The notes under the pieces were generated by a model. It was not told the origin of the DNA. It was given only the letters and a program-made list of their open reading frames with translations, and ran no database searches. Made by a program: the position numbers and the translations under genes. Below are positions 637 through 23,113 of a stretch of DNA of 64,000 bases, one piece after another. Numbering within the stretch: position 1 is the stretch's first letter; each line of letters begins with the position of its first letter. Source of the DNA: a bacterium (GTDB lineage: Bacteria; Campylobacterota; Campylobacteria; Campylobacterales; Arcobacteraceae); assembly GCA_018816105.1 (NCBI GenBank), contig JAHIWE010000020.1, forward strand, positions 17,401-81,400. Reading direction: 5' to 3'.

Positions 637-1188
637 ATGAAATTAATTGATACACCAATAAAAGGTTTAAGAATATTAGAACCTGTTGTTTTAAACGATA
701 ATAGAGGAAGCTTCACAAAAATATTTAATATGGATTTTTTTAGAGATAATTTAATAGATTTTGAAATTAAAGAGTCTTTTTTTAATGTATCAAATAAAGA
801 TGTAATTAGAGGTATGCATTTTCAATTACCACCTTTTGAACATGCTAAGGTTGTGTATGTTCCAAAGGGAAAAGTATTAGATGTAGTTTTAGATTTAAGA
901 AAAGGGTCTTCTACTTATGGAAAATATTACTCAATGGAATTATCTTCTTTAAATTCAAAAGTATTAATAATTCCAAAAGGATTAGCCCATGGATTTAAGT
1001 CTTTAGAAGATAATACTTGTGTAGTTTATTTGCAGAGTTCTTGTTATAATATTTCATGTGATAAGGCTATTAAATATGATTCTTTTGGATTTGATTGGAA
1101 TTGTTTAAATCCTATATTGTCTCAAAGAGATTTAATTTCTGATAATTTTGACGATTTTGATAGTCCATTTATATATAAAGAAATTTAA
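637..1188 (+). CDS. dTDP-4-dehydrorhamnose 3,5-epimerase (RmlC/RfbC)-like sugar epimerase
   Basis: RGMHFQ...VLDVVLDLRKGSSTYGKY...IPKGLAHGF, typical RmlC cupin motifs. Confidence 0.85.
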   Translation: MKLIDTPIKGLRILEPVVLNDNRGSFTKIFNMDFFRDNLIDFEIKESFFNVSNKDVIRGMHFQLPPFEHAKVVYVPKGKVLDVVLDLRKGSSTYGKYYSMELSSLNSKVLIIPKGLAHGFKSLEDNTCVVYLQSSCYNISCDKAIKYDSFGFDWNCLNPILSQRDLISDNFDDFDSPFIYKEI

Positions 1189-2084
1189 TGAAGATTTTGA
1201 TAACGGGAGTAAGTGGTTTCTTAGGGCAAAATTTAGTAAGGTTTTTACTTGATAAAGATTTTGATATACATGTAGTTGTAAGAAAAAATAGTAATACTTC
1301 TTTTTTAAATAAAAAAATAAAGATTTTCGTTTATGACAATGATGATATAGATAGTTTAATCAAGTATTTTAAAGTGAATAAATTTGATGGAGTTATTCAT
1401 TTAGCATCACTTTTTTTAGCTAATCATCAAAGTCAGGATATTTCATCATTAATAAGCTCAAATATAAAATTTGGAACAGAAATTTTAGAAGCTTCAAAAA
1501 TAAGTAAAGTATCTTGGTTTATTAATACGGGTACTTTTTGGCAAAATTATGAAAATGAAGATTATAATCCTGTAAATTTATATGCAGCTACTAAAGAAGC
1601 ATTTGAAAAAATTGCATTTTATTTTACTCAAACTAGTGATATGATTTTCACTACAATAAAATTGAATGATACTTTTGGTCCAAATGATACAAGAAATAAA
1701 ATATTTAATTTATGGTTAAATGCTTTAAAGACGAAGGAAGAGATTGCTATGTCAAAAGGTGAACAAATTATTGATATAAGTTTTATAGACGATATTGTAG
1801 AAGCTTATTATGTATTGATTAATCATTTATCAAGTGAAAACAAAGATAAATTTAGGAATAAAACTTTTGCTATTAAATCTGATACAAGAGTTACTTTAAA
1901 AGAATTATCTAAAATTTTTGAGAAAGTGGTAAATTGTAAATTAAATATAATTTGGGGTAAAAAAGAATATAGAGAAAGAGAGATTATGGAACCTTGGAAT
2001 AAAGGTGAAGCTATACCTGAATTTAAAGCAAAATATAGTTTAGAAAAGGCAATTAAAAAAACTTTAGAGGAAATAAATGAATAA
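1188..2084 (+). CDS. NAD-dependent epimerase/dehydratase/reductase (extended SDR)
   Basis: N-terminal ITGVSGFLGQNL Rossmann motif; YAATK catalytic region. Confidence 0.85.
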   Translation: MKILITGVSGFLGQNLVRFLLDKDFDIHVVVRKNSNTSFLNKKIKIFVYDNDDIDSLIKYFKVNKFDGVIHLASLFLANHQSQDISSLISSNIKFGTEILEASKISKVSWFINTGTFWQNYENEDYNPVNLYAATKEAFEKIAFYFTQTSDMIFTTIKLNDTFGPNDTRNKIFNLWLNALKTKEEIAMSKGEQIIDISFIDDIVEAYYVLINHLSSENKDKFRNKTFAIKSDTRVTLKELSKIFEKVVNCKLNIIWGKKEYREREIMEPWNKGEAIPEFKAKYSLEKAIKKTLEEINE

Positions 2085-3417
2085 AGAAGAACAATTAAAA
2101 AAAGAAATACTTGAGAAAACTAAAGAATATTATGAATTAGTACATAAAAATGCTACATCGGGTGCTAAAATAAATTATGCGGGTAGAGTTTTTGATGAAA
2201 AAGAGTTAATTAATTTGGTTGATAGCTCTTTAGATTTTTGGTTAACTTATGGAAATTATTCAAAAAAGTTTGAAAAGAATTTTGCAAAATTTTTAGGTAC
2301 AAAATATGCTTTTTTGGTTAATTCGGGAAGTTCTGCAAATTTATTAGCTTTTTTTTCACTTACCTCTGTTTTATTAAAAGATAGACAAATTAAAAGAGGA
2401 GATGAGGTAATTACTGTTGCTGCAGGATTCCCAACTACTGTTTCTCCTATTGTTCAGTATGGGGCTATTCCGGTTTTTGTTGATATTGAATTAAAAACTT
2501 ATAATATTGATATTTCAAAATTAGAAGATGCAATAAGTTCAAAAACAAAAGCTATTATGATAGCTCATACTTTAGGTAACCCTTTCAATTTAAAAGAAGT
2601 AAAGAAATTTTGTGAAAAGTATAATCTTTGGTTGATTGAAGATAATTGTGATGCATTAGGCTCTTTATATGATGGTAAATATACAGGAACTATTGGAGAT
2701 ATTGGAACTAGTAGTTTTTATCCCCCTCATCACATGACAATGGGAGAAGGTGGAGCTATATATACTAATAACCCTATTTTAAAGAAAATAATTTTAAGTA
2801 TGAGAGATTGGGGTAGAGATTGTTGGTGTGAAAGTGGAGTTGATAATACCTGTGGAGTTAGATTTTGTAAGGAATTTAAAAATCTGCCCAAAGGCTATGA
2901 TCATAAATATGTATATTCACATTTTGGATTTAATTTAAAATCAACAGATATGCAAGCAGCAATAGGTTTAGCTCAGTTAGATAAATTACCAGGTTTTATT
3001 GAAAGCCGACGAAGTAATTTTCAGAAATTATATAATGAACTTAAAAATATAGAAGAGTTTTCTTTTATGGAAGCACAAGAGAACTCTATTCCTAGTTGGT
3101 TTGGTTTTATAATGACATTAAAAGATAATTTAACTTTTACTAGAAATGAAATTGTTGAATATCTTGAAGATAATAAAATACAAACAAGAAATCTATTTGC
3201 TGGAAACATGACTAAACATCCAATGTTTGAAAGTATGATTCTAAATAAAGATTATAGAGTAGTTAATGAGTTGTCAAATACAAATAAAGTTATGAATAAT
3301 AGTTTTTGGATAGGAGTTTATCCAGGATTAACACAAGAACAAATAGAATATATTGTAAATAATATTAAAAGATTTTTAGAAGAGAAAAATGGAAAAAAAA
3401 CAATTAAAAAGAATTGA
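2077..3417 (+). CDS. rfbH: RfbH/E1-type CDP-4-keto-6-deoxyglucose 3-dehydrase (DegT/DnrJ/EryC1 fold)
   Basis: PLP-site Lys replaced by His (FYPPHHMTMGEGG); Cys spacing C-x57-C-x1-C-x7-C (EDNC...RDCWCESGVDNTC), the E1 [2Fe-2S] signature. Confidence 0.9.
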   Translation: MNKEEQLKKEILEKTKEYYELVHKNATSGAKINYAGRVFDEKELINLVDSSLDFWLTYGNYSKKFEKNFAKFLGTKYAFLVNSGSSANLLAFFSLTSVLLKDRQIKRGDEVITVAAGFPTTVSPIVQYGAIPVFVDIELKTYNIDISKLEDAISSKTKAIMIAHTLGNPFNLKEVKKFCEKYNLWLIEDNCDALGSLYDGKYTGTIGDIGTSSFYPPHHMTMGEGGAIYTNNPILKKIILSMRDWGRDCWCESGVDNTCGVRFCKEFKNLPKGYDHKYVYSHFGFNLKSTDMQAAIGLAQLDKLPGFIESRRSNFQKLYNELKNIEEFSFMEAQENSIPSWFGFIMTLKDNLTFTRNEIVEYLEDNKIQTRNLFAGNMTKHPMFESMILNKDYRVVNELSNTNKVMNNSFWIGVYPGLTQEQIEYIVNNIKRFLEEKNGKKTIKKN

Positions 3418-4390
3418 TTTAGATAATAGAACTAAACTAGAAACAGTAATACCTTTAAGTACTCCATTTATAATTAATGTAGATCCTTCAGATTCTTGTA
3501 ATTTTAAGTGTGGATTTTGTCCAACAGGAGATAGAGAATTAATGAAGAAGGTTGGACGACCTTTTATTACTATGAATTTTGATCTCTTTAAAAAAATTAT
3601 TGATGATTTAAAGGATTTTTCTGCACCTATTAAAGTTCTAAGACTATATAAAGATGGAGAACCTTTATTAAATCCTAATTTTGCAGAAATGGTAAAATAT
3701 GCAAAAGATAGTGGATGTGTATTAAGAGTTGATACTACGACTAATGGTTCTTTATTAAATCCAACGTTAAATAGAAAATTGATTAACTCAGGGATTGATA
3801 GAATAAATATATCTATTGAAGGTGTTAATGCAGAACAGTATATGAGCTTCTCAAAATATAAAATAGATTTTGATAAATTTGTAGCTAATATTAGAGATTT
3901 ATATAATAATAAAGAAAACTGTGAAATAGTGGTTAAAATTAATGGAGATATTTTAACAGAAGAAGATAAATTATTTTTTAAAAAAACATTTGAAGATATA
4001 TCAGATAGTGCATATATTGAACATATAATGTCATGTTGGCCAGAGTTTGAATTAAGAGATGGATTGGAAGTAAATAATGAACTTGCTCTTTATGGTCAAG
4101 AAATAAAAGAAGTTTCAGTTTGTCCTTATGTTTTTTATTCTTTTTCCATAAATTCTGATGGTAAAGTTAGTTTGTGTTTTCTGGATTGGTCTAAAAAACT
4201 TTTAATTGGAGATACCCGCGAGGAAAAATTAAAAGATATTTGGTTAGGGAGTAAATTAAGAGATTATCAAAAGATGTTTTTAGAAGGCAAAAGGAAATCT
4301 AATCCTATTTGTAGAAACTGTGGGCAAATGACTCATGGAATGCCTGATAACATAGATAAATTCTCTGAAAATATATTAAAAAGGATTTAA
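3389..4390 (+). CDS. Radical SAM protein with SPASM/twitch-like C-terminus (paralogue of next gene)
   Basis: CNFKCGFC (Cx3Cx2C); C-terminal VCPYVFYSFSINSDGKVSLCFLDW...CRNC. Confidence 0.88.
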   Translation: MEKKQLKRIDLDNRTKLETVIPLSTPFIINVDPSDSCNFKCGFCPTGDRELMKKVGRPFITMNFDLFKKIIDDLKDFSAPIKVLRLYKDGEPLLNPNFAEMVKYAKDSGCVLRVDTTTNGSLLNPTLNRKLINSGIDRINISIEGVNAEQYMSFSKYKIDFDKFVANIRDLYNNKENCEIVVKINGDILTEEDKLFFKKTFEDISDSAYIEHIMSCWPEFELRDGLEVNNELALYGQEIKEVSVCPYVFYSFSINSDGKVSLCFLDWSKKLLIGDTREEKLKDIWLGSKLRDYQKMFLEGKRKSNPICRNCGQMTHGMPDNIDKFSENILKRI

Positions 4391-4392
4391 TT

Positions 4393-5403
4393 GTGGCCGC
4401 TAAAATTAAACCAAGATCTGAGGTGGATTATAGGGAGAAATTAGAAGATGTAATACCCTTGTTAACTCCTTTTACTTTATATATAGATCCATCAAGTGCG
4501 TGTAATTTTCAATGTACTTTTTGTCCTACTGGAGATAGAAATTTAATTAAACAAGTAAATAGAAAAGTAACTCAGATGAGTTTTGAACTATTTAAAAAGA
4601 TTATTGATGATTTAGATTCTTTTGATGGAGTAATAAAACTTTTAAGACTTCATAAAGAAGGAGAGCCTCTATTAAATAAAGATTTTACTAAAATGGTAAA
4701 GTATGCAAAGCAAAGTAAAAAGATTTTAAAAATAGATACAACTACAAATGCTTCTTTATTAAATCCAAAAAAGAATTTGGAAATTATAGAAGCAGGACTT
4801 GATAGAATTAATATATCTATTGAAGGATTAACCCAAAAACAATATCTTGATATAGCCAAATATAAAATAAATTTTGATGAATTAGTAGATAATATAAAAC
4901 ATTTTTATGAAAATAAAGGTAATTGTGAAGTAAGTGTAAAAATTCCAGGTGATTGGTTAAGTCAAGAGCAGAAAAAAGAGTTTATTTCTATTTTTTCACC
5001 CATTGCAGATAGAATATTTATTGAAAATATTAGTAATTGTTGGCCAGACTATGAAATGAATGGTATAAAAATAAATGAAAATATTGGAGTTTATGGGCAT
5101 GAAAAGAAAGATATAGATATTTGTCCTTATATTTTTTATTCAATGGCTATAAATTCTGATGGTACAGTAAGTGCTTGTTGCGTTGATTGGGAAAGAAAAC
5201 TTATTCTTGGTGATACCAAAGAAGAAAAAGTAAAAGATATTTGGTTAGGTAAAAAATTAAATAAACTACAAATATTACATTTAAATAAAAAAAGAAAAAA
5301 TTATTCAATTTGTTCTAAATGTCATTTAGCACAATCTTGTGCAGGTGATGATATAGATGATTTTGCATCAGATATATTAAAAAGGTTAGAAAATTGTGAT
5401 TAA
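4393..5403 (+). CDS. Radical SAM/SPASM protein (paralogue of preceding gene), GTG start
   Basis: CNFQCTFC; C-terminal ICPYIFYSMAINSDGTVSACCVDW...CSKCHLAQSC. Confidence 0.88.
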   Translation: MAAKIKPRSEVDYREKLEDVIPLLTPFTLYIDPSSACNFQCTFCPTGDRNLIKQVNRKVTQMSFELFKKIIDDLDSFDGVIKLLRLHKEGEPLLNKDFTKMVKYAKQSKKILKIDTTTNASLLNPKKNLEIIEAGLDRINISIEGLTQKQYLDIAKYKINFDELVDNIKHFYENKGNCEVSVKIPGDWLSQEQKKEFISIFSPIADRIFIENISNCWPDYEMNGIKINENIGVYGHEKKDIDICPYIFYSMAINSDGTVSACCVDWERKLILGDTKEEKVKDIWLGKKLNKLQILHLNKKRKNYSICSKCHLAQSCAGDDIDDFASDILKRLENCD

Positions 5404-6520
5404 ATGGCAAGAGGAGTTTTCTAATTTAATAGATGCAAATAATGCATATAATTTTAAAGATTTTGATAAAAACAGTTCTATTATATTATATGGAGCAGGA
5501 TCTTTAGGACAAATGGCTATTTCTTTATTAGGAGAGAAACAAGTAATTCCTAAATATATTATTGATAAAAATTTAGAAGGAAAAATAAACAACATACCTA
5601 TTCGAAAGTTAAGTGAACTTACTTTTGATGAAATTGAAGAATCATTATTTGTTGTTTGTATTTCTTCCCTTGAATTTTTACCAATTTATAATGATTTGAG
5701 AAATATTGGTTGTAAACACATAATTCAGTTTTATGATTATTCTGAAGTTTTTTTTAATAATATTTTAGGAAATGGTTGGTCAAAAACAGAATTAACTAAG
5801 GAAGATGAGAATTTTATAAAAAGAGTTTTTAGAAATTTAGAACATGATGAAAATAGTGTAGCTCACTACTTACAGTTTTTATGGTGGAAAATGAGAAGAA
5901 TTGAAAAAATTTATGAAAATTTCCCTGTATTATCATCTAAAAAATATTTTAAAGCTAAATGTTTCCCCTCTATGGATGAAAAAGAGAGATATTTAGATTG
6001 TGGAGCTCACTTTGGGAATACTATTATGGAGTTTATTGAATGTGTAAATAAAAAGTATTCAAAAATATGGGCTTTTGAACCTGATAACTATAATATGACA
6101 TCTTTAAAACAAAAAACAAAAAACTATAAAAATATTGAATATTTTTCAGATGCTTTGTCTGATGAAAATATAAAAGAAGTCTCTTTTTATGATAATTTAG
6201 GTTTTGCTTCAAAAATTGATAAAAAAGGTAGAAGCAAGGTAAATATGAAAACTATTGATAGTTTTGCTTTTGAACCTACTATAATTAAATTACATGTTGA
6301 GGGATTTGAATTAAATGTATTAGAAGCTGCAAAAAATACAATAGAAAATTCAAGACCAATTATAATGGTTTTAGCCGATCATAATGAAGATGGTCTTTAT
6401 AAAATAGCAAATTTTTTAATAAATTTAGATAAGTATAAATTGTATTTTTATTTGCATGATTATTGTGGAAATTCAGCGATTTTTTATGCTATACCAAAGG
6501 AAAGAGAGAACACGTATTGA
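5396..6520 (+). CDS. FkbM-family methyltransferase with N-terminal Rossmann-like module
   Basis: N-term IILYGAGSLGQMAI...YIIDKN; C-term YLDCGAHFGNTIMEF...IIKLHVEGFELNVLEAA. Confidence 0.8.
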   Translation: MIKWQEEFSNLIDANNAYNFKDFDKNSSIILYGAGSLGQMAISLLGEKQVIPKYIIDKNLEGKINNIPIRKLSELTFDEIEESLFVVCISSLEFLPIYNDLRNIGCKHIIQFYDYSEVFFNNILGNGWSKTELTKEDENFIKRVFRNLEHDENSVAHYLQFLWWKMRRIEKIYENFPVLSSKKYFKAKCFPSMDEKERYLDCGAHFGNTIMEFIECVNKKYSKIWAFEPDNYNMTSLKQKTKNYKNIEYFSDALSDENIKEVSFYDNLGFASKIDKKGRSKVNMKTIDSFAFEPTIIKLHVEGFELNVLEAAKNTIENSRPIIMVLADHNEDGLYKIANFLINLDKYKLYFYLHDYCGNSAIFYAIPKERENTY

Positions 6521-7536
6521 TATCAGAACCATTAATAAGTATTTGCATTCCTAATTATAATAATGCAAAATATTTACGAAAAAGTATTTCTAGTGCATTA
6601 AATATAAATTATAATAATAAAGAAATCATTTTTGTAGATGATAATTCTTCTGATAATTCTATGGCTGTAGCAAAAGAGTTTTCTTCTTATATAAAAATAT
6701 ACCAAAATGAAAATAATTTAGGTCAAGCAAAAAATACAAATAAATGTATATCTTTATCAAATGGAAAATTTGTTGTAATCTTACATAGTGATGATCAGTT
6801 ATTAGCTAATTTTGCTGAAAAACTAGTTCCTTTATTAGAAGAAAATGAAGATGTTGTAATGGCAGTAGGAGAAAGAAAAGAAACAGATGAGAGTGATAAT
6901 ACAGTAAGTATTACTCCTTTTTATAATACAAACTGTTTTATTCCTGGTGAAAAACAAGCCAAGGTTTTTATGATGATGTCCTTTCTTCCTTGTCAAGTTC
7001 TTTTTAAAAAAGAAGTTTTTATAAAATCTGGACAAGTAAATGAAAGACATATTGTAAATTTAGATGGTTTATTATGGTTTCAAATCTCTTTGTTAGGAGA
7101 AGTTGCATATATTCAAGATGAAGTAAGCATATATCGAATTCATGGTGAAAATACAACTTCAAAATATAATAAAACAATTAATCATATGATGGAATATTAT
7201 GTAACATTATCAGAAATGTTTAAATTGGCAAAAGGAAGAGAATATTTAGAAGGGTACTTTGATATTGCAGAAAAAAGAGTTGCAACATTAACTTTACGAT
7301 ATTGTATTGATGTAATTAAAAATAAAGATTTTAAACTAGCAAATCAATATTTACAATTATCAAAAGTTTTTGATATGGATATTGTAAATAACGAGCTATA
7401 TATTAAGCTAAAACATTTTTTATTAAATGTTGATTTAAAGAATTTCGAAAATTTTTGTAAAGAAATAGATATCATAAAAAAAAGAGAGTTTAGTTATGAA
7501 CCTCCTTTGGGATATAAACAAATTAGGAATCAATAA
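6517..7536 (+). CDS. Glycosyltransferase family 2 (ORF open from 6463; TTG start at 6517 likely, overlapping upstream stop)
   Basis: LISICIPNYNNAKYLRKSISSAL...IIFVDDNSSDNS; TTGA overlap at 6517-6520. Confidence 0.85.
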   Translation: MISEPLISICIPNYNNAKYLRKSISSALNINYNNKEIIFVDDNSSDNSMAVAKEFSSYIKIYQNENNLGQAKNTNKCISLSNGKFVVILHSDDQLLANFAEKLVPLLEENEDVVMAVGERKETDESDNTVSITPFYNTNCFIPGEKQAKVFMMMSFLPCQVLFKKEVFIKSGQVNERHIVNLDGLLWFQISLLGEVAYIQDEVSIYRIHGENTTSKYNKTINHMMEYYVTLSEMFKLAKGREYLEGYFDIAEKRVATLTLRYCIDVIKNKDFKLANQYLQLSKVFDMDIVNNELYIKLKHFLLNVDLKNFENFCKEIDIIKKREFSYEPPLGYKQIRNQ

Positions 7537-8811
7537 ATGAATTTAAATAATGATAATTTTTCTTTTGAAGAGTTGAAAGAATATTTGTTAACAAAAAAGG
7601 TAATAATTTTTGGTGCTGGAAAAATTGGGAAAAGTTTAATAAGTGGGCTGCAGAAAATCTCAATATCTCCCTATGAAGTCTGGGATAATAATTATGATAA
7701 ATATGAAGATGAAATTGCTTATGAAGTAAAAAAACCAAATTTAGAAATTTTAAATAAAGATAGTTTTGTTATTATTGTGACAATATATTCAAAAAATATT
7801 AGTGAAGAAATATATTTAACTTTATTAAAAAATCATTTTAATAATATAATTTATAATAGAAATGTAATTAATAAGGTTCTATACACTCAATGTAAAGAAG
7901 AAATAAATGAAGGAAATTTTATTTTTGAGTTAAATAAGTGTCATTTATGTCCAGTTTCAAAAGATATAGAAAATAGATGTGATATCTATGATCTAAATAT
8001 TACAAAAAATTTTATTAAAAAAGATAAAAAAATAAGTAATGGTATCAAAATACCATCAATGGGTGTTTTAGTATCTAATAAATGTAATTTAAAATGCATA
8101 GGATGTAATCAATTACGAGACAAATATGATTCTTCTAGTTATTTAGATATTGATGAAAAAGATATTTTAAATGATTTAAAAAAATTAAGTTTAGCCGTTG
8201 ATATTATAGAAAAAGTTGTTATTGTAGGTGGAGAATCTTTATTACATAAAGAAATTAATAAAATATTAATTGGTATTTTAGAAATTGAGAATATAGGGAT
8301 TATTCAATTAATCTCAAATGGAACAGTTATTCCTAAAACAGATGAAATTTTTGAACTATTAAATAATCCAAGAATAAAAGTAGAAATTAGTGGATATGGT
8401 GATTATTTGACAAATATGCAAAATGAAAAAGTACAAATATTTATTTCAAAATTAGAGAAATATAATGTAAATTTTGATTATGTAAAAACTTTACAATGGT
8501 TCGATTTTGGAAATTTAGATAAGAGAAATTATTCAAAAGAGAAATGGCAAGAAGTTTATAATAAATGCTGTTTTATTTCAAATGATTTATTTAATGGGCA
8601 ACTACATAAATGTGCAAGAAGTGCTTTTTCAAAACATTTAAATATTCTAAAAGATGTTGATTATGTGGATATTAGAAATAGTAATATTGAGGATCTTAGT
8701 AGATCAATAAAGCTTTTTTTAGAAAATACACTACCTACTATTTGTCAATATTGTAATGGTACTTCTTCTTTAACAATTCCAGCAGGAAAGCAAAAAAATG
8801 AAAAAAAATAA
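7537..8811 (+). CDS. Radical SAM protein with N-terminal Rossmann-like module
   Basis: N-term VIIFGAGKIGKSLI; radical SAM CNLKCIGC. Confidence 0.82.
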   Translation: MNLNNDNFSFEELKEYLLTKKVIIFGAGKIGKSLISGLQKISISPYEVWDNNYDKYEDEIAYEVKKPNLEILNKDSFVIIVTIYSKNISEEIYLTLLKNHFNNIIYNRNVINKVLYTQCKEEINEGNFIFELNKCHLCPVSKDIENRCDIYDLNITKNFIKKDKKISNGIKIPSMGVLVSNKCNLKCIGCNQLRDKYDSSSYLDIDEKDILNDLKKLSLAVDIIEKVVIVGGESLLHKEINKILIGILEIENIGIIQLISNGTVIPKTDEIFELLNNPRIKVEISGYGDYLTNMQNEKVQIFISKLEKYNVNFDYVKTLQWFDFGNLDKRNYSKEKWQEVYNKCCFISNDLFNGQLHKCARSAFSKHLNILKDVDYVDIRNSNIEDLSRSIKLFLENTLPTICQYCNGTSSLTIPAGKQKNEKK

Positions 8812-10105
8812 AATTCTTCATTTGACTCCACACTTAGGTGGAGGAGTAGGTCGTGTATTAAAATCATTTTTTTTGGAATTTAAAAAGAATCAAAACTATT
8901 CTCATGAAATATATTCTCTTGATAGTATTAATACGGAGTCTAAAATATTTCTAGAAGAATTATTATTCCCATATAAAGAATTTATGTATCAAAAGATTGA
9001 TGAAATATTAAATAAAATAAAAGATATAGATATTTTAATAGTTCATTGGTGGAACCATCCTTTATTATATGAATTTTTAGTTAAATATGAATTACCTAAA
9101 ACAAGAGTTGTTTTTTGGAGTCATGTTTCTGGAAATAGTGCTCCTCAATTTTTTACAAAACCTCTATTAGAGTATCCGAATAAATTTATTTTTACTACGC
9201 CTATTAGTTATCAAGTTGATGAGGTAAGTATTTCTAATAATATAAAATTTGAAGATATTTGGGCCACAACAAATTTTAAACAGGTAAAAAATATAAAAAT
9301 TAAAAAACATGATACATTTAATATTGGATATGTAGGAACAATTGATTTTTCAAAGCTTTATCCTAATTTTGTGGAATTATGTTCAAAAATAGAAATTCCC
9401 AATGTAAGATTTATTATTTGTGGAGAAGGAAGTCATTTAGAGTTTATAAAAAATCAAGTTAAGGAAAAAAGATTAGAAGATAAATTTATTTTTACTGGAT
9501 TTGTTCATAATATAAAAAAATATTTATCTTTGTGTGATGTTTTTGGATATCCTTTAAACAAAGAGCATTATGGAACTTGTGATCAATCTTTAACTGAAGC
9601 TATGTATAGTGGAATTGTTCCTGTGGTTTTTAATAATTTAATGGAAAGTCACATGGTTACTCATATGCAAACGGGGATAATTGTTTCAAAGGAAAGTGAG
9701 TATATTGATGCAATTTTAATGTTATATAATAATAAAAAATTAAGAGAAGAGCTCTCTTTTAATACAAAAAAAATTGTAAGAAAAAGATTTTCTATAAAAT
9801 ATAGTATAAAGAAATGGGAAAGAGTATTTAACAAAATTCTGAAAAAAGATAAAACAGTAAAAAAATGGAGAGGAAAATATAGTGGTATTAATGTAGAACC
9901 TAGCCAAATCTATTTAGAATCTTTGGGTAAATATTCTTTAGTTTTTGAAGAAAATGACTTTGATAAAATATCTAATTTATATAACTCTTCTATGTCTTGG
10001 AAATCTGAAACTAAAGGGACAATAAATCATTATAATAAATTTTTCAAAGATAAAACACTTGAAAAATGGTTAAAATTAAATAGAGGTAGCGAAAATGAAT
10101 CCTGA
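8798..10105 (+). CDS. Glycosyltransferase family 4/1-like
   Basis: LTPHLGGGVGRV N-term; FNIGYVGTIDFSKLYPNF...FICGEGSHLEFIKNQ...GTCDQSLTEAMYSGIVPVV. Confidence 0.85.
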   Translation: MKKNKILHLTPHLGGGVGRVLKSFFLEFKKNQNYSHEIYSLDSINTESKIFLEELLFPYKEFMYQKIDEILNKIKDIDILIVHWWNHPLLYEFLVKYELPKTRVVFWSHVSGNSAPQFFTKPLLEYPNKFIFTTPISYQVDEVSISNNIKFEDIWATTNFKQVKNIKIKKHDTFNIGYVGTIDFSKLYPNFVELCSKIEIPNVRFIICGEGSHLEFIKNQVKEKRLEDKFIFTGFVHNIKKYLSLCDVFGYPLNKEHYGTCDQSLTEAMYSGIVPVVFNNLMESHMVTHMQTGIIVSKESEYIDAILMLYNNKKLREELSFNTKKIVRKRFSIKYSIKKWERVFNKILKKDKTVKKWRGKYSGINVEPSQIYLESLGKYSLVFEENDFDKISNLYNSSMSWKSETKGTINHYNKFFKDKTLEKWLKLNRGSENES

Positions 10106-13026: not shown

Positions 13027-13035
13027 AGGAATTGT

Positions 13036-14019
13036 ATGTATGAAATTGATGATTTAATCTATCCAATCAGTAGGTTTTGTCCAGGAAAATGTTTAAATTG
13101 TAATATTTATAAAACAGACCCTAGAATAAAAGATGAAGTATCAGTAGATATATTTGAAAATATAATAAAAAGTAAAGTTTTAGAAAAAACTTTTTATTTT
13201 TCTTTAACAGGTGGAGAGAGCCAGTTAAGTCCAAAATTTATACCTATTTTAGAATTGATTTCGAAATATAAACCAAATGCATCTATTCATTCAAATACAA
13301 GTGGTTGGCATACCAAAAGAACTATAGAAATTGCAAATAGAGGTTTAGAGTTATTTGAAGCAGGGAAATTTAGAATAGATATTTCTATTGATGGAATAAA
13401 AGAAGATTATGAAAAAGTTAGATTAACCAATAATGGTTGGGATAAAGCAATGACTACTACAAAAGAGTTATTATCTTTAGGTATGAAACCTACTTTTGTA
13501 ATGATTGTTTATAAACAAAACTATAAGTCAATAGAACCTTTTGTAGAAATGTGTAAGAAAATGGGAGTTAATTGGTTTATTGGATTTGCAGTTGAGAGTG
13601 AAAATTTCAATAATATTGGAAAAATCCAATATTATGAGAATAATGAATTAGATTTAATAGAAAAATCATTAGAAAAAATCGGGTTTATGGATACTAAACA
13701 TTATTCTAACTGGATGTGGGCAAAGTCAATATACACAAATACAGTTCCCCAATTTAATTGTTTTATGGGTAAAAAATCTATTATGATTGATGCTTATGGT
13801 GATGTTTATCCTTGTGGTGGAGCACAAGAGAAAAGACTTAATAAGATGTTAACTATGGGAAATATCAAAGAGTATAATGGAGATTTAGATAGTTTATTAT
13901 ATGAAAGTAAAGCTCTTAAAGTTTTAGAAAATATTGAGAAAAAAAACTGCCAACCATGTAAATTACTTTGTGCCCATAAAATAGAATTCCCTTGGGGAAA
14001 ACATACAGGGATGGTTTAG
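13036..14019 (+). CDS. Radical SAM protein (paralogue of 16220..17194)
   Basis: FCPGKCLNCNIY (Cx3Cx2C); C-terminal CQPCKLLCAHKIEFPWGK. Confidence 0.85.
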   Translation: MYEIDDLIYPISRFCPGKCLNCNIYKTDPRIKDEVSVDIFENIIKSKVLEKTFYFSLTGGESQLSPKFIPILELISKYKPNASIHSNTSGWHTKRTIEIANRGLELFEAGKFRIDISIDGIKEDYEKVRLTNNGWDKAMTTTKELLSLGMKPTFVMIVYKQNYKSIEPFVEMCKKMGVNWFIGFAVESENFNNIGKIQYYENNELDLIEKSLEKIGFMDTKHYSNWMWAKSIYTNTVPQFNCFMGKKSIMIDAYGDVYPCGGAQEKRLNKMLTMGNIKEYNGDLDSLLYESKALKVLENIEKKNCQPCKLLCAHKIEFPWGKHTGMV

Positions 14020-14023
14020 TTTA

Positions 14024-15151
14024 TTGAATTTATTAATTGTATTTCATTCATTATATTCTTTAGCTGGGGGAGTTGATAATAGACTAAGCGAGTTAGAGAT
14101 GAACTTGCCTTCTTATATAAATAGAGAATATCTTTTATTTAAAGATGAGGTTGACCTTCCCCATAAGGGAAGAATTAATATATTAAAATCAATTAGTATT
14201 CCAAAATTTATTTTAAATGAAAAAAGAAAATTTAAATATTTAACATATTTATTTGGTATTCTCAATTTAATACTTAGAGTTTTAAAAACAAGAAAATTTT
14301 TAAAAGAAAAGAAGTTTGATACTATACTAGCTGTTGATGATTATTTTTCTATAATATGCTTAATTGCTTCTATTGGATTAAATATTAAGATTGTCTGCTC
14401 TGTTAGAAATAATTGGGATAGCTTATATGATAATAGTATGATTCATTTATTACCTGATTTTTTTTATAAAAAATTATTACCTATTTTAATGAATAAATAT
14501 TCTTCAAGTGTTCATTGTGTTAGTGAAGAATTATCAGAAAAGTTAAACAAGAAGTATAAAGTTAAAAATACGAAAGCTATTTATAATATATTTGATATTG
14601 AAATAATAAAACAAAAAGCAAATGAAGATATTGATATTGAGGGAAATTATTTCATAAATATAGGCCATTTTAATAAGCAGAAAAATCAAAAAGATTTGAT
14701 TGTTGCTTACAAAAATTTAAAAGAAAATCATAATATTTCAGAGAAATTAATTTTAATTGGAGATGGTGCAAATATAATAGATTGTAAGAACTTAGTAAAA
14801 GATTTTAATCTAGAAAAGGATGTTATCTTTCTAGGAAAACAATCAAATCCTTATAAGTACTTAAAAAGAGCATCTTTATATATTTCTAGTTCTTTATATG
14901 AAGGTTTACCTGCTGTATTTATTGAGTCATTAATTCTTGAAATCCCAATAGTTAGTTATGAGTTTGAAACAGGTTCTAGAGAACTTACATCGAACCTTTG
15001 TTCTTTGACTCCAGATAGTTTAGTAAATCAAATGGTTTATTTTATCTCACATAAGAATCTTATACATGAGTCTATATCCAAAGGAAATGAGATAGTTAAA
15101 AATAAATTTGAAAAAGAAGTAATTTTAAATAAATGGTTGGAATTATTGTGA
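14024..15151 (+). CDS. Glycosyltransferase family 4
   Basis: LLIVFHSLYSLAGGVDNRL; FINIGHFNKQKNQKDLI...SSLYEGLPAVFIESLILEIPIVSYE; non-ATG start. Confidence 0.87.
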   Translation: MNLLIVFHSLYSLAGGVDNRLSELEMNLPSYINREYLLFKDEVDLPHKGRINILKSISIPKFILNEKRKFKYLTYLFGILNLILRVLKTRKFLKEKKFDTILAVDDYFSIICLIASIGLNIKIVCSVRNNWDSLYDNSMIHLLPDFFYKKLLPILMNKYSSSVHCVSEELSEKLNKKYKVKNTKAIYNIFDIEIIKQKANEDIDIEGNYFINIGHFNKQKNQKDLIVAYKNLKENHNISEKLILIGDGANIIDCKNLVKDFNLEKDVIFLGKQSNPYKYLKRASLYISSSLYEGLPAVFIESLILEIPIVSYEFETGSRELTSNLCSLTPDSLVNQMVYFISHKNLIHESISKGNEIVKNKFEKEVILNKWLELL

Positions 15152-16227
15152 ATTGTCCAAATTGTAAAAAAAGTACAAAAAGTGTTTATAAAAATAAGGC
15201 TATGCCCTATGGAATATCTTTAAAAGATATAAAAATAGATATTGAGATTGAATATTGCGTAAATTGTGGTTTTACTTTTCAATCATCTTCTTACAATGAA
15301 GAGTATGACTTTAATATATCTAAACTTTATGAATCATATACAATATCAAATATGTATAACTTCCCAAATAGAAGTATTACAAATATTAAAGCTTTAGATT
15401 TTATAAGTGAAGATGTAGATAATGAAATTAATTTTAATGTATTAGAGATAGGTTCAAATAGGGGAGACTTCTTGTATTTGTTAAAAGAAAAGTTTCCAAA
15501 TATTAATATTTTAGGTTGTGAACCAACAAATTTTAAAGAGTTAAGTATTCCCACAATTAACGCTTTTTTTGATAAAAATTTATTTAATACAAAATTTGAT
15601 TTGATTATTTTGAGACATACTTTAGAGCATATAAAAAATCCTAAATTATTTATTGAAGAGTTAGAGTATTTACAAAAAAATAGTTCTAAACTTTTTATTG
15701 AAGTACCAAATATAGTATATTCTTTGGAAAACTTTATTGAAGATTTTACTCCAGATCATGTAAACTTTTTTGATAGTAGTTTTTTAATAAATTTAGTTAA
15801 TAAAAAAGTTTTAAAACTAGATGATAGAGAATACCTATATGTATTGTTTGAAAATAGTAAAGCAGATGAAAAATCAGAAAAGTCTAGTTTTAATTTGATT
15901 GAATTATTTAAAACTTATGAAGAAAGAGTAGAGCAATTATTAGATAAAGTATCAAGATATGATAGAATAATTTTTTATGGTATTAGTAACTTTTATTTAT
16001 GGACTTTTTCAAAATTAAAAGACAAAATAAAAGATAAAGAAGTATATTTTATGGATGATTTTTTAAAAGAAGATAAGATAAATAATTTGCCTAAATTAGA
16101 TAAATTAAATAAAAACGATTTAGTGATACTTTGTAGTTCAAATAAAAATATTCAAAGGCAGATGAGTGAAAAACTTCCAAAAAATATTAGCATTCTTTAT
16201 CCTTGGGAGAAAATAATTAATGTATAA
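15133..16227 (+). CDS. Zinc-ribbon class I methyltransferase resembling sugar C-methyltransferases (TylC3/NovU-like architecture)
   Basis: N-term CPNC...CVNCG zinc motif; VLEIGSNRGDFLYLL MTase motif I; C-term Rossmann-like IIFYGISNFYLW. Confidence 0.72.
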   Translation: MVGIIVNCPNCKKSTKSVYKNKAMPYGISLKDIKIDIEIEYCVNCGFTFQSSSYNEEYDFNISKLYESYTISNMYNFPNRSITNIKALDFISEDVDNEINFNVLEIGSNRGDFLYLLKEKFPNINILGCEPTNFKELSIPTINAFFDKNLFNTKFDLIILRHTLEHIKNPKLFIEELEYLQKNSSKLFIEVPNIVYSLENFIEDFTPDHVNFFDSSFLINLVNKKVLKLDDREYLYVLFENSKADEKSEKSSFNLIELFKTYEERVEQLLDKVSRYDRIIFYGISNFYLWTFSKLKDKIKDKEVYFMDDFLKEDKINNLPKLDKLNKNDLVILCSSNKNIQRQMSEKLPKNISILYPWEKIINV

Positions 16228-17194
16228 AATAGAAGATATAAATTATATGGTTTCACTTTTTTGTCCTGGAGAGTGTGTTAATTGTAATATTTGGCAATAT
16301 GATAAAGATGAGATTAGAAAAGATGAGTTAGATTTAACTACTTTTGAAAATATTTTCAAATCAAAATATCTTAAAGATACAAACTACTTTGACTTAACTG
16401 CTGGAGAATCCCAACTTAGCCCTAAATATGTAGATGTTGTAAAAACTATTAGTACAAATAAACCTCATGCTTTTATTCATACAAATATAAGTGGTTGGTA
16501 TCCAAAAAAACATTTTGAAGTTACAAAAGAGTGTTTAAAATATGTAAAAAAAGAGAATTTTAGATTAGATATTTCTTTAGATGGTTCTGAAAATAACTAT
16601 AAAAAAATTAGATTAGTAAAAAATGGTTATGGAAAAGTTCAAGAGAGTATTAAGCTATTGAAATCTCTTGGGATAAAATTAAGAGTTACTATGATTGTCT
16701 ATAAAGACAATTATGAAGATATACCTTGGCTAGTGAATTTTGCAAAAGAGAATGACATAGGTTATTTTATAGGATATGCAAGAAATGCTGGATTATTACA
16801 AAATAAAGAGAATAAATATTTATATACAGATGATGAACTTAGTAAAATTGAAAATTTACTTACAGATGTAAAATGGTTAGATGAAAGAAGAAAACCTAAT
16901 TGGCTTTGGGCTAAATCAATTTATAAAGATGAGGTTCCTTATTTTAATTGTTTTATGGGTAAGAGAGCAATTGTAATTGATCCATATGGAAATGTATTTC
17001 CTTGTAATGAACTTTTAGAAAGTTTGAAAATGGGAAATCTAAAAGATTATATGGGTAATCTAGACGCTCTTTTAGAATCTAAACAAGCACAAGATGTCTT
17101 AAAAAAAGTAGAGAATAAAGATTGTCAGCCTTGTTCTATGTTATGTGCTCATAAAATAGAATTTCCTTGGGGAAAACAAGTAGGACTTCAATAA
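16220..17194 (+). CDS. Radical SAM protein (paralogue of 13036..14019)
   Basis: FCPGECVNCNIW; C-terminal CQPCSMLCAHKIEFPWGK. Confidence 0.85.
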   Translation: MYKIEDINYMVSLFCPGECVNCNIWQYDKDEIRKDELDLTTFENIFKSKYLKDTNYFDLTAGESQLSPKYVDVVKTISTNKPHAFIHTNISGWYPKKHFEVTKECLKYVKKENFRLDISLDGSENNYKKIRLVKNGYGKVQESIKLLKSLGIKLRVTMIVYKDNYEDIPWLVNFAKENDIGYFIGYARNAGLLQNKENKYLYTDDELSKIENLLTDVKWLDERRKPNWLWAKSIYKDEVPYFNCFMGKRAIVIDPYGNVFPCNELLESLKMGNLKDYMGNLDALLESKQAQDVLKKVENKDCQPCSMLCAHKIEFPWGKQVGLQ

Positions 17195-18945
17195 TGTGTG
17201 GAATTGTTGGAACAAATTTTAAAACAGAGAAGTTTTATAAATCTATTGAATTATTAGACCATAGAGGTCCTGATAATCATGGATATTTTGAATTTGAAAA
17301 TAATCAGTTTGGTCATACTAGGCTTAGTATTATTGATTTAAATGATGAAGCAAATCAACCAATGGTTTTTGATAATTTAGTTATTACATTTAATGGAGAA
17401 ATTTATAATTATCAAGAATTAATTAAAAATGAAGATTTAAAATGTATTACAAAGTCTGATACTGAGGTAATTATTAGGCTTTATCAGAAATATGCAGAGA
17501 ATTTTTTAAATAAATTAAATGGAATGTTTGCTTTTTGTATTTTTGATAAAAAGAAAAAAAGCTTTTTTTGTGCAAGGGATAGATTTGGTAAAAAACCATT
17601 TTATTATTATTATCAAAATAATAAGTTCATATATGCAAGTGAAATAAAATCTATTTTAAATCTTTTAGATTCTACTCCTACAATGAATGAAATAGCTCTT
17701 AGTGAATATCTTTCTTTCATGACACCAATTAATAATAATACATTTTATAAAGGTATAAATAAACTTTCAGCTGGGCAATTAATTTATTTTGATGAGAAAA
17801 ATTTTAAAGTAAGTTCATATTATGATATAGATAATATAAAAACAACACAATTTGATGAAAAAATTGTTTTAGAAAATATAGAAACTAAATTAATTAAGTC
17901 AGTAAAAAGTAGGTTAGTATCTGATGTAGAGGTTGCAACGCTTCTATCAGGTGGAGTTGATTCTTCTTTAACATCTGCTTTATATTCAAAATATAGTAAA
18001 AACCAAATAAATACTTTTTGTATAGGTTATGACGAGCATTTACATTATAGTGAAACCTCATATGCTCAAATTGTAGCAAAACATATAAATTCAAATCATC
18101 ATGAATTAATAATTGGTAGAAAAGATTTTATTGAAACAATTGATAAAATGTTAGAGTATACAGATGAACCTTTTGGTGATAGTGCCTCTATTCCTACATA
18201 TTTACTTAGTAAATACATTCACAAACAAGGTATAAAAGTAGCATTGTCTGGGGAAGGAAGTGATGAAAGTTTTTTAGGTTATGATAACTATTTTAAAATG
18301 CTTCAATATTATAATTCAAAAGGTAGTATTGAACCTTTTTCTTTAACAAAAGAATGGGAGTTTAATAATAGAGCTTTTTTTAATAAAAATATTTATCAAT
18401 CTTGTGGAGAAACATTTACTGAAAAGCAAAAAGAAAAACTTTTTCTAAATTATAAAGAAAAAAATCTTTTAGAAAACTATAAAAGTAATTATAGTGCCAT
18501 TAAATGGCTTACTTATATTGATTTTAAAGTTTGGATAGCTGAAGTTTTAATGACTAAAATAGATAAAATGTCAATGGCTAATTCTTTAGAATTGAGAGCA
18601 CCTTTTTTAGATTTCAATTTAGTTGAATATATGTTAAGTGTGGATGAGAATTTGAAAAAAGGAAATACAAATAAATATTTATTAAAACAAATTGCTGAAA
18701 AATATTTGCCCAAAGAGATTGTACATAGACAAAAAAAAGGTTTTAGTTCACCATTTATTGAATGGACTTTAGAAGAGTATAAGCAAGAGAGTTTAAATAT
18801 CATTTTAGAAGTTAATGCAACTCTAAATATATTTAATAAGAGTTTTATACACTTCTTATATAATGAAGCAAAAGAAAAAAGATTTAAACAGCATTTTTGG
18901 AATTTGTTTATCTTTTCAAAATGGTTTAAAAAGGTATACCTATGA
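17194..18945 (+). CDS. asnB: Asparagine synthase (glutamine-hydrolysing)-like amidotransferase; ORF open from 17167 but true start is ATG 17194
   Basis: MCGIVGTN N-terminal Cys nucleophile, DHRGPDNHG, PP-loop LLSGGVDSSL. Confidence 0.9.
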   Translation: MCGIVGTNFKTEKFYKSIELLDHRGPDNHGYFEFENNQFGHTRLSIIDLNDEANQPMVFDNLVITFNGEIYNYQELIKNEDLKCITKSDTEVIIRLYQKYAENFLNKLNGMFAFCIFDKKKKSFFCARDRFGKKPFYYYYQNNKFIYASEIKSILNLLDSTPTMNEIALSEYLSFMTPINNNTFYKGINKLSAGQLIYFDEKNFKVSSYYDIDNIKTTQFDEKIVLENIETKLIKSVKSRLVSDVEVATLLSGGVDSSLTSALYSKYSKNQINTFCIGYDEHLHYSETSYAQIVAKHINSNHHELIIGRKDFIETIDKMLEYTDEPFGDSASIPTYLLSKYIHKQGIKVALSGEGSDESFLGYDNYFKMLQYYNSKGSIEPFSLTKEWEFNNRAFFNKNIYQSCGETFTEKQKEKLFLNYKEKNLLENYKSNYSAIKWLTYIDFKVWIAEVLMTKIDKMSMANSLELRAPFLDFNLVEYMLSVDENLKKGNTNKYLLKQIAEKYLPKEIVHRQKKGFSSPFIEWTLEEYKQESLNIILEVNATLNIFNKSFIHFLYNEAKEKRFKQHFWNLFIFSKWFKKVYL

Positions 18946-20003
18946 TTTGGTTTGATTTAGTGACTCCAAAATCTGTTTTATTCTTTATTCCTATAATAAA
19001 AGAAATAAAACACAGAGGAAGAAAAGTTTTAATTACCGCAAGAGAAGGTAGTGGATATTCAGAAGTTGTGGAATTATTAAGACTTTATAATATGGAATTT
19101 GTAAATAGAGGTGAATTTGGTGGAGCTGAGTTAAAAGATAAATTACATGCATCTATTGAGAGACAAAAAGCCTTAATGGAGTTTGTAACTCTTTATGATA
19201 TAGATAGACTTGTTTGTTTATGTTCTGTTGATGCAAATAGGGTTGCTTTTGGATTAGGTATTCCTGTAATTAATTTTTATGATATTCCTTTATCTGATTA
19301 TAAAACAAACTTTAAAAAAGCACTTCCTCAAGCAAGACTTACTCTTCCTTTATCTAATAAAGTTTTTAAACCATTTGTTGTGCCAGATGAGATTTTCTTA
19401 CGATTTTCTTTAGATGAAGAACAAATTTTTGATTATAATTTTATTGATCCTTTAATTTGGTTAAAAGATTTTAAGCCAAGTTTTGAATATGTTAAAGAAA
19501 TACTTAAACCATACAATCTTGATTTAACAAAAAAATTAATTATTATTAGAGAAGAAGAATATAAATCTTCTTATGTTGATAAAAAATATCCAATTTTATA
19601 TGAAGAATTAGAAACAATTTATAATTCAACAAACTCAAATATTATAATTATTCCAAGATATGAAAGTTTATATTTAAAAAAAGAATTTCCTTTTGCAGTA
19701 GTATTAGAAGAAAAAGTGATTATTCAACATCTTTTAGCTTATGCGGATTTATTTATTGGAGGAGGCGGTACTTTAAATACAGAAGCTTGTTTTTTTAATA
19801 CTCCAACGATTTCTACTAGAAGTTTTATTTGTCATTATGATAAATACCAAATAGATAACAACTTAATGTATTGGGTTAATACTAAAGAAGAATTATTAGA
19901 AAATGTATATAAATTATTATCAGATAAAAAAACTATTAATAAAAATATATTTGATAAAATGAGTTTAGATATTCCAAAGTTGGTTGATCAAATTTTGAAT
20001 TAA
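18942..20003 (+). CDS. DUF354-family protein (GT-B/epimerase-like fold predicted)
   Basis: MIWFDLVTPKSVLFFIPIIKEIKHRGRKVLITARE...LFIGGGGTLNTEACFFNTPTIST. Confidence 0.75.
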   Translation: MIWFDLVTPKSVLFFIPIIKEIKHRGRKVLITAREGSGYSEVVELLRLYNMEFVNRGEFGGAELKDKLHASIERQKALMEFVTLYDIDRLVCLCSVDANRVAFGLGIPVINFYDIPLSDYKTNFKKALPQARLTLPLSNKVFKPFVVPDEIFLRFSLDEEQIFDYNFIDPLIWLKDFKPSFEYVKEILKPYNLDLTKKLIIIREEEYKSSYVDKKYPILYEELETIYNSTNSNIIIIPRYESLYLKKEFPFAVVLEEKVIIQHLLAYADLFIGGGGTLNTEACFFNTPTISTRSFICHYDKYQIDNNLMYWVNTKEELLENVYKLLSDKKTINKNIFDKMSLDIPKLVDQILN

Positions 20004-20025
20004 TATAAAGAAGGATTTATAATAA

Positions 20026-22068
20026 ATGTCACAAAAAAATGCAGAAGAGCAACTTCAAACAGCCTTAACAACAACTTTTCTAGCTAATTTAGTTTTTCTT
20101 AAAGAGTATGATAATAATTTATATCAAAAAGTAGATGAACTATCAAAAATGATTAATGAAGGTATTTATAAAGAAAAATATGCATTAGACTTTATAAAAG
20201 AAAATGGAGATTTTGATATATATGATTTGATTAATGATAAATATTTATATAATCAAAAACCAAAAAAGATAAATAATGATTTAGTTCAAAAAGTGCAATT
20301 TGATGAAAAAGAGTCTATTTTTACCCTTGAAAATATTTTTACTATAAAAGAAAATTTTACAATGGATCCAAATATTAGATTTGATATAAAAAATTATTCA
20401 CAATCAGTTCAAATGACTATTAGTGATATATCTAAATATACAAATACTTTAAAAGATTTTTTAGAAAATAAGAAAAAAAGATTAAAAAAGATTAAAAAGT
20501 TTATTTTTATTGGAACTTTACTTGGAAGACATATTCCAAAAATTGCAGAAAAAGTTGATGCAGATTTATATTTGGTTTGTGAAAGAAATTTAGAAATATT
20601 TAGATTATCTTTATTTACTGTTGACTATACAGTATTAGCAAAAAAAGGTGTTATTTTTTCAATAATGGATAATCCTATTCAAGAAGAAGAAAAAATATTT
20701 CAATTTTTTAATATTAATTCTTTTGATAATTATCTTATAAAATTCTCTTCAACTAGAATCAATGTTAAAGAATATATAGATTACTTATTATCCTCTTTTA
20801 TGTGTATAAAACCAACATCTTATGATTATAATAGATATTTGTACACTTTTATAAACAGAAGTACTAAAACTTTAAATAGTAATTATAAAACCCTTTTAAT
20901 TAATAAGATTAAAAATAAATCATCTATATTTAAAAATCATCCTGTTCTTTTTATTGGAGCAGGGCCTTCTTTAGATGAAAATATTCTTTGGATTAAAAAC
21001 AATCAAAGTAAATTTTTCATTGTAACAATAGGGGCGGCTTATAAAAAGCTATTACAAAATGATATTAAAATCAATTTGATAATTACATTAGATGAAAAAT
21101 ATGAAGAATTAAATATGAATCAATTTGATGATGAAAGTGTTTCTTTAATTAATGATGAAACTCTTATTGCAGCATCATGTATGACCGATAGTAGGATATT
21201 AGAAAAATTTAAAAAAGACAATCTTTTTTTATATGAGATATTTGCTCCTTTTCATCGTAGAAATATTGAATTAACAGGTTTTAGTGTAGGAGAAATTGCT
21301 ATACAATTATTATTAAATATGAATGTAAATAAACTATATTTAATTGGCTTAGATATGGCATTAAATCAAGATACAGGGAAATCACACTTTGAAGGCAATA
21401 GTGAAGAGTTAACATATAATTTTGAAGAAGAAAATAGAGATGTTTTTGGATTAAGAGAAGGGCTTTTAAAAGTAAAAGGTAATTTAGAAAAAGAAGTATA
21501 CACAACAGCTGTTTATTATACTTCAATCAAATATATTGATAAGTATTTAAGTTTAAAAAATGATGATACTAATATTTATAATTTATCAAAACATGGTGCA
21601 TATTTTAATAATTCTATTCCTACAAAAGTTGAAAATATAAACTTTGAAGATTTTGAAGATTTAAAATTTGATAATAAAACTATACTAAATTTATTTAATA
21701 CTTCTTCTTTATCTTTCTTGGAAAATAATTCAAAATCAGAAATCCAAAAAGTGATTAATTTTATAAGAAATAATATTGAAACAAATTTTAAACAATATAA
21801 AGAACAAAAATATACAACTTATGAAGATTTTCTATATGGAACAATAAAACAATTGTCTCTTATAACAGATTATGAGTTTAAAAATAGTTCTATTGCTTAT
21901 ATTCTAAGGAATTATTCTCAAATAATATTACCTTATCTGTCTTATCATTTTAATGATTTAAAAATTAAAAATGAAAGTAAAAAGATAGAAAAAATTAAAA
22001 AGATATTTACAGATCAAATAGAACAGATTTTTTATGATTATATGAAATTTTTGGAAAGAGTTGTATAA
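20026..22068 (+). CDS. Motility accessory factor (Maf)/DUF115-family putative flagellin glycosyltransferase
   Basis: HPVLFIGAGPSLDENILWIKNNQSKFFIVTIGAAYKKLLQNDIKINLIITLD; adjacent flagellin gene. Confidence 0.85.
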   Translation: MSQKNAEEQLQTALTTTFLANLVFLKEYDNNLYQKVDELSKMINEGIYKEKYALDFIKENGDFDIYDLINDKYLYNQKPKKINNDLVQKVQFDEKESIFTLENIFTIKENFTMDPNIRFDIKNYSQSVQMTISDISKYTNTLKDFLENKKKRLKKIKKFIFIGTLLGRHIPKIAEKVDADLYLVCERNLEIFRLSLFTVDYTVLAKKGVIFSIMDNPIQEEEKIFQFFNINSFDNYLIKFSSTRINVKEYIDYLLSSFMCIKPTSYDYNRYLYTFINRSTKTLNSNYKTLLINKIKNKSSIFKNHPVLFIGAGPSLDENILWIKNNQSKFFIVTIGAAYKKLLQNDIKINLIITLDEKYEELNMNQFDDESVSLINDETLIAASCMTDSRILEKFKKDNLFLYEIFAPFHRRNIELTGFSVGEIAIQLLLNMNVNKLYLIGLDMALNQDTGKSHFEGNSEELTYNFEEENRDVFGLREGLLKVKGNLEKEVYTTAVYYTSIKYIDKYLSLKNDDTNIYNLSKHGAYFNNSIPTKVENINFEDFEDLKFDNKTILNLFNTSSLSFLENNSKSEIQKVINFIRNNIETNFKQYKEQKYTTYEDFLYGTIKQLSLITDYEFKNSSIAYILRNYSQIILPYLSYHFNDLKIKNESKKIEKIKKIFTDQIEQIFYDYMKFLERVV

Positions 22069-22093
22069 ATGTAGAGATTCAAAATCTCTACAT
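22069..22093. terminator. Bidirectional intrinsic terminator-like hairpin between maf and flagellin
   Basis: ATGTAGAGAT-TCAAA-ATCTCTACAT, perfect 10-bp stem between convergent genes. Confidence 0.75.
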
Positions 22094-22100
22094 CTATTAT

Positions 22101-22946: not shown

Positions 22947-22973
22947 AATAAATCCTTTTTATATATGACACAT

Positions 22974-22993
22974 TGTGATTTGAATAAATCACA
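22974..22993. promoter_or_regulatory. Perfect 8-bp inverted repeat in flagellin leader region
   Basis: TGTGATTT-GAAT-AAATCACA, 28-47 nt upstream of the flagellin start codon. Confidence 0.45.
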
Positions 22994-23113
22994 TCCTCAA
23001 ACCTTCTTGTTTCACCAAGCATAGAGAGGAAAGCTTTTCTTCTCTTCGGAATCCATTGATCCCTAATCTTTATATTGAAAGTATGGCACACCATTTCTTA
23101 AAATTAGATTAAA

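Follow-up and report, generated by a model that had tools for sequence, protein, structure and literature searches.

Two putative radical SAM sugar-tailoring modules in a probable flagellin glycosylation island of an Arcobacteraceae genome

A stretch of 64,000 nucleotides from an Arcobacteraceae genome (the window; G000:C4:17401-81400) carries, at positions 637-22068, a run of glycan-related genes with six radical S-adenosylmethionine (radical SAM, rSAM) enzymes that ends at a convergent flagellin gene. G numbers denote compared genomes (G000, the source genome, is 92% complete with 183 contigs and 2.78 Mb) and C numbers denote contigs. We propose with good confidence that this cassette is a flagellin glycosylation island carrying two radical SAM sugar-tailoring modules and seated in the flagellin-glycan slot of the genus. 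The most likely task of its six rSAM enzymes is to supply the flagellum with unusual sugars. The gene content given for 637-22068 in a preliminary description is real: its six rSAM open reading frames (ORFs; 3389, 4393, 7537, 12004, 13036, and 16220) match in coordinates and all exceed the PF04055 cut-off, and profile searches recovered the GT2/GT4 glycosyltransferases, three methyltransferases (one FkbM and two others), AsnB, DUF354, Maf/DUF115, and convergent flagellin that it had listed. We could also name three genes that it had left unnamed, an RmlC-like epimerase (637), a NAD epimerase/reductase (1188), and RfbH (2077-3417).

The genes at 637-22068 form a single run, overlapping or almost touching (spacing -58 to +22 bp), with a 32-bp spacer between the last of them and the flagellin gene. 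Upstream of the window, the same contig carries neuB-neuC-neuA together with the initial two thirds of GT0, a gene whose 3' end opens the window; recA, eno, and bioB, all core genes, precede neuB-neuC-neuA. Because neuB-neuC-neuA and the GT0 start lie outside the window, we place the island at about G000:C4:13263-39468 (approximately 26 kb). The whole genome (2.78 Mb) has 28 PF04055 matches, and six rSAM genes fall within a 14-kb part of the island, a density far above the genome background. A seventh rSAM gene on the contig (G000:C4:7464) is bioB, which lies outside the island and was not counted as a member.

The flagellar role is well supported by the conserved slot, a collinear island in a relative, and the absence of export genes. 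In all nine complete genomes of the same genus, the slot follows the order recA/eno, variable nonulosonic-acid (pse, leg) or other glycan genes, maf, and flagellin, and in most of them trmA and a gene for a Suv3-like helicase come next. Slot contents vary among the nine, two of which carry rfbF/rfbG. One of the nine (G029) has two different rSAM genes in its flagellin-glycosylation slot (record L084, 13266 and 14111). Maf is found in 28 of 31 genus genomes; the only Maf of the source genome (20026-22068, + strand; PF20157 and PF01973, formerly DUF115) lies inside the island and adjoins its best-scoring flagellin (22101-22946, - strand). Maf glycosylation takes place in the cytosol (PMC4065374), and in Aeromonas the Maf-linked sugar is lengthened to a heptasaccharide by island glycosyltransferases (PMC7874193). 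Profile searches and transmembrane (TM) prediction revealed no flippase, polymerase, ABC transporter, or initiating transferase among the island proteins, none of which is predicted to span the membrane more than twice. The preliminary description had proposed a flagellar or surface glycan; the neighbourhood survey (a slot conserved with varying contents and a collinear island in G245) favours the flagellar half, and the lack of polysaccharide export machinery disfavours the other. An ankyrin-repeat protein of 643 aa is encoded near the flagellin locus (window 26042-27973).

The collinear relative shows how the island is built. Module B, in the order MT11-rSAM4-rSAM5-GT4b-CMT-rSAM6-asnB-DUF354, is preserved in G245, a member of another family, and with one added methyltransferase in G102. 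The G245 locus reads flagellin-Maf-GT0-rfbG-rmlC-epimerase-rfbH-GT2-MT11-rSAM4-rSAM5-GT4b-CMT-rSAM6-asnB-DUF354; compared to the source island, it includes rfbG and lacks rSAM1-3, FkbM, GT4a, and one GT2. The G245 and G102 orthologues are 73-82% similar, versus 48% between paralogues. Genes of the rSAM5/6 type turned up in few genomes, 5 of 104 in the family and 6 of 397 sampled from the phylum, and no rSAM5 match at cut-off was present in other genomes of the genus. Among the sampled genomes of the phylum, the eight with such genes all have DUF354 adjacent, and five have Maf close by.

The rSAM proteins, all encoded on the + strand, group into two paralogous pairs, rSAM1 (3389-4390) with rSAM2 (4393-5403; 53%) and rSAM5 (13036-14019) with rSAM6 (16220-17194; 48%), plus the single rSAM3 (7537-8811) and rSAM4 (12004-13026). 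All six retain the CxxxCxxC motif and a C-terminal cysteine set, and five exceed the PF13186 SPASM/twitch cut-off; rSAM3 gave no SPASM match in the PF13186 search and carries a 160-aa N-terminal extension before its radical SAM domain. rSAM1 and rSAM2 are related to the twitch enzyme BtrN (2-deoxy-scyllo-inosamine dehydrogenase), which is the best PDB sequence match of their profile (E 2e-16). Their auxiliary cysteines (C-x17-C-x44-C-x2-C) align with those of BtrN, free of gaps over the last three, and seven cysteines (three SAM-cluster and four auxiliary) are invariant across 23 homologues. Structure searches, which the preliminary description had suggested as a check, were run for rSAM2 and rSAM6 (two plasmid-record rows were left out of the alignment for structure prediction). 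The AlphaFold2 model of rSAM2 (pLDDT 86) is closest in fold to substrate-bound BtrN; SuiB and DesII come next, and BlsE and SpeY rank lower. The rSAM6 result was split: by TM-score its model (pLDDT 83) is closest to BlsE (0.70/0.69), which acts on cytosylglucuronic acid (PMC3715490), but by fold E-value the best match is the peptide maturase SkfB. Structure-aligned identity to BtrN/BlsE/DesII-type enzymes is only 13-18%. Fold by itself cannot tell sugar from peptide substrates in the radical SAM superfamily, and gene context carries most of the argument for a sugar. Together, the BtrN/BlsE-like sequence, fold, and context point to radical chemistry on a sugar. A ring carbon would be oxidised or epimerised by rSAM1 and rSAM2, and rSAM3-6 would provide putative tailoring steps of unspecified reaction type. 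Placed beside rSAM6, AsnB may amidate a carboxyl group.

The rSAM1/2 pair belongs to module A, which recurs in other genomes. When 84,980 species genomes were searched with rSAM2, 25 loci were identified (Pseudomonadota, Thermodesulfobacteriota, Nitrospirota, and others), 22 of them usable. The GT4a family was the most constant partner within 10 kb of the homologues (20/22), followed by FkbM and rmlC (17/22 each), rfbG (13/22), and rfbF (12/22), and rSAM3 homologues occurred in five of the 22 loci. All 22 genomes searched, a set that includes one weakly related Sulfurimonas locus, encode flagellin. The rSAM1/2 gene lies no more than 30 kb from flagellin in 5 of 18 assessable genomes versus 0.5 expected (P about 1e-4), a rough statistic because distances were hand-entered and contig breaks ignored. 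Parts of the island cassette recur beside flagellin genes in distant phyla.

The closest sampled relative of rSAM1 is encoded on plasmid pBHWA1 of Brachyspira hyodysenteriae (61% identical; tree sister, 98/95). Some rows of the rSAM tree sit on very long branches and, therefore, only this supported sister pair was used. In the pBHWA1 block, an epimerase gene, rfbC (RfbC-like), and the gene for a glycosyltransferase with 45% identity to GT4a also lie next to rfbF. By gene order and annotation, these rSAM, glycosyltransferase, epimerase, and rfbC genes are the four-gene plasmid block found in virulent strains and missing from attenuated ones (PMC4267127). The plasmid region 15109-25086 holds at least five rSAM1/2-subfamily genes and another rSAM gene beside rfbF, which suggests repeated duplication within the module. 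tblastn searches of pBHWA1 with rSAM5 and rSAM3 gave weak matches only.

The genome also encodes candidate precursor pathways. The island NeuB scored 394 bits, just below its cut-off (399.65), NeuC scored above its own, and a NeuA-like gene is present. A genome-wide search covering PseB and LegC, but neither PseC nor LegB, gave no match above cut-off in the 92%-complete genome, which speaks against a classical pseudaminic (Pse) or legionaminic (Leg) acid pathway. Because the sialic-acid-like set is present and PseB/LegC matches are absent, a Neu-type (sialic-acid-like) linker is likely in this 92%-complete genome. The CDP-3,6-dideoxyhexose set RfbF/RfbG/RfbH is complete genome-wide, with RfbH in the island and RfbF and RfbG on contig C169. 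RfbH (2077-3417, + strand; CDP-4-keto-6-deoxy-D-glucose-3-dehydrase, E1) scored 719 bits to the NCBIfam equivalog NF011936 (cut-off 423), and its nearest solved structures in the PDB sequence search are CDP-4-keto-6-deoxy-D-glucose-3-dehydrases (E about 1e-154; PDB 3bcx, E 8e-155). On C169, RfbF and RfbG belong to a separate O-antigen-like locus (8000-25318) with a Wzx-type protein of 12 TM segments and other membrane proteins. A second RfbG is found on contig C113 with a gene set resembling the C169 locus.

The remaining island genes in the window, all on the + strand, run from GT0 to the DUF354 protein. GT0 (3' end at 1-576; 622 aa, starting upstream at G000:C4:16108) has sub-threshold, GT-B-like matches only, at its C-terminus, and has been conserved in G102, G245, and G325, each time within the flagellin island; it could be the first extending transferase or a protein-acting transferase. 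Neither GT0 nor the DUF354 protein (18942-20003; PF04007) had a match in the PDB sequence search. The RmlC-like NDP-4-keto-sugar 3,5-epimerase (637-1188) scored 162 bits to PF00908 and stayed below cut-off in the TIGR01221 search; it is followed by the NAD-dependent epimerase/reductase of the short-chain dehydrogenase/reductase family (1188-2084; PF01370). Four glycosyltransferases are recognised by Pfam, two of the GT2 family (6463-7536 and 10095-11258) and GT4a (8798-10105) and GT4b (14024-15151). The methyltransferases are the FkbM-family O-methyltransferase (5396-6520; PF05050), the class I enzyme MT11 (11259-12023), which has one C-terminal hydrophobic stretch, and CMT (15133-16227). By eye only, CMT has a C-methyltransferase-like layout with zinc-ribbon-like N-terminal cysteine pairs. 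Methyltransf_13 and Methyltransf_14 were not among its Pfam matches, and a search of the G245 homologue that allowed E values up to 1 did not recover them either; we rejected the assignment of CMT as a TylC3-type NDP-sugar C-methyltransferase because these profiles are absent. The AsnB-type glutamine amidotransferase (17167-18945) matches PF00733 and TIGR01536 above cut-off. Extra GxGxxG-like stretches, Rossmann-like by eye, occur at the C-terminus of the second GT2 (10095-11258) and at the N-termini of FkbM and rSAM3.

A pathway consistent with these genes would operate from the genus flagellin-glycosylation locus, with the cassette swapped in. NeuC, NeuB, and NeuA would produce a CMP-nonulosonic acid, probably of the sialic-acid type, which Maf would attach to a flagellin serine or threonine in the cytosol, and four to five soluble glycosyltransferases would lengthen the Maf-linked sugar. 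Module A (the RmlC-like epimerase, reductase, RfbH, rSAM1, rSAM2, GT4a, and FkbM) would be fed by CDP-4-keto-6-deoxyglucose; here rSAM1 and rSAM2, BtrN-like enzymes with one predicted auxiliary Fe-S cluster, would oxidise or epimerise a ring carbon, GT4a would transfer the resulting sugar, and FkbM would methylate it. Module B (MT11, rSAM4, rSAM5, GT4b, CMT, rSAM6, AsnB, and DUF354) would yield a second sugar, methylated and amidated. The rSAM enzymes could act on NDP-sugars or on the flagellin-bound sugar, either order being possible. We suggest only tentatively, as a rather doubtful extension, that the rSAM enzymes remodel sugars already on flagellin and that the Brachyspira plasmid module decorates the periplasmic flagella, which would explain the virulence correlation.

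Several observations weigh against a flagellar sugar-tailoring island. RfbF and RfbG are missing from the island and the genome's copies sit at the Wzx locus; the island's CDP-sugar supply would therefore be shared or different. The alphaproteobacterial rSAM1/2 loci are not near flagellin (in Jiella pelagia, 1.7 Mb apart), the genome is only 92% complete and in 183 contigs, and the explanation is drawn from sequence, modelled folds, and gene context. Furthermore, rSAM5 and rSAM6 score best to the peptide maturases DynA and SkfB in NCBIfam and PDB sequence searches. Together with the SkfB fold match of rSAM6 by E-value and the presence of a protein, flagellin, as the neighbouring substrate, these scores raise the possibility that some rSAM enzymes modify protein, perhaps flagellin itself, rather than sugar. 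We consider this improbable, given the BtrN match of rSAM1/2, the top TM-score of rSAM6 to the sugar-nucleoside enzyme BlsE, and the constant company of glycosyltransferases and NDP-sugar genes. A dedicated peptide substrate, as in the maturation of ribosomally synthesized and post-translationally modified peptides, was rejected; the widest gap in the island (22 bp, with 32 bp before flagellin) leaves no room for a precursor gene.

It is very improbable that the island serves to build an O-antigen, a capsule, or another lipid-linked surface glycan, with maf and flagellin as chance neighbours. NDP-sugar, glycosyltransferase, and methyltransferase genes are usual in such loci, RfbH is named for lipopolysaccharide, and the Campylobacter jejuni HS:19 capsule region has rSAM genes. 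However, a Wzx/Wzy O-antigen or capsule locus was rejected because the island has no export genes and the 12-TM Wzx-type protein is at a separate locus; moreover, all nine relatives use the slot for their flagellin glycosylation locus and the G245 island is collinear, with Maf and flagellin. We give hardly any credence to a recently acquired cassette that is inactive or decaying. The patchy distribution, including the absence of rSAM5 matches at cut-off elsewhere in the genus, would fit such an origin, but every ORF is intact and overlapping, the catalytic cysteines are kept, and G245 and G102 preserve the gene order of the block, in which similarity between orthologues exceeds that between paralogues.

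The flagellin glycosylation island proposed here has partial counterparts. The Aeromonas piscicola AH-3 Group II island (PMC7874193) is also variable in content and combines a linking nonulosonic acid on flagellin with many glycosyltransferases and tailoring enzymes for a multi-sugar flagellar glycan, as is predicted for the source island; it is Pse-based and the paper mentions no radical SAM genes. Similarly, the C. jejuni/coli flagellin locus (Pse/Leg, Maf) has Maf and nonulosonic-acid genes by flagellin and adds methyl and other decorations, whereas the source island has NeuBCA, CDP-deoxyhexose enzymes, and six rSAM genes in a genome with no PseB/LegC above cut-off. CDP-4-keto-6-deoxyglucose genes are known from flagellar islands (PMC13317340); that of Clostridium butyricum DSM 10702 carries RfbF/G/H/S and shares the RfbH branch, but its predicted sugar is paratose and the paper mentions no rSAM. 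The pBHWA1 block resembles the island in its rSAM1-sister enzyme, GT4a-like glycosyltransferase, and RfbC-like and epimerase genes beside rfbF, but it is on a spirochaete plasmid without maf or flagellin, and a putative role in lipooligosaccharide or protein glycosylation was proposed for it (PMC4267127). BtrN (butirosin), BlsE (blasticidin S), and DesII, the sugar-enzyme matches of rSAM2 and rSAM6, differ in serving antibiotic pathways with small-molecule substrates.

Radical SAM genes have been recorded in the Brachyspira glycan block (PMC4267127), in phase-variable loci of C. fetus (PMC6321876), and in the C. jejuni HS:19 capsule region (PMC8743553); therefore, the gene type is not unprecedented in glycan loci. 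The earlier proposal that rSAM steps set this island apart from classical Pse or Leg loci holds to that extent, with the sugar chemistry itself remaining a prediction. A literature search, with most subscription journals outside its coverage, found no paper joining rSAM enzymes with flagellin glycans. If the proposal is correct, radical chemistry would be a recurrent, mobile route to flagellar sugar diversity in at least four phyla (Campylobacterota, Pseudomonadota, Thermodesulfobacteriota, and Nitrospirota), with related genes on a plasmid from the Spirochaetota. It would also provide a testable idea of what the Brachyspira gene block does, a question dating from 2014, and name sets of enzyme, glycosyltransferase, and methyltransferase ready for in vitro work.

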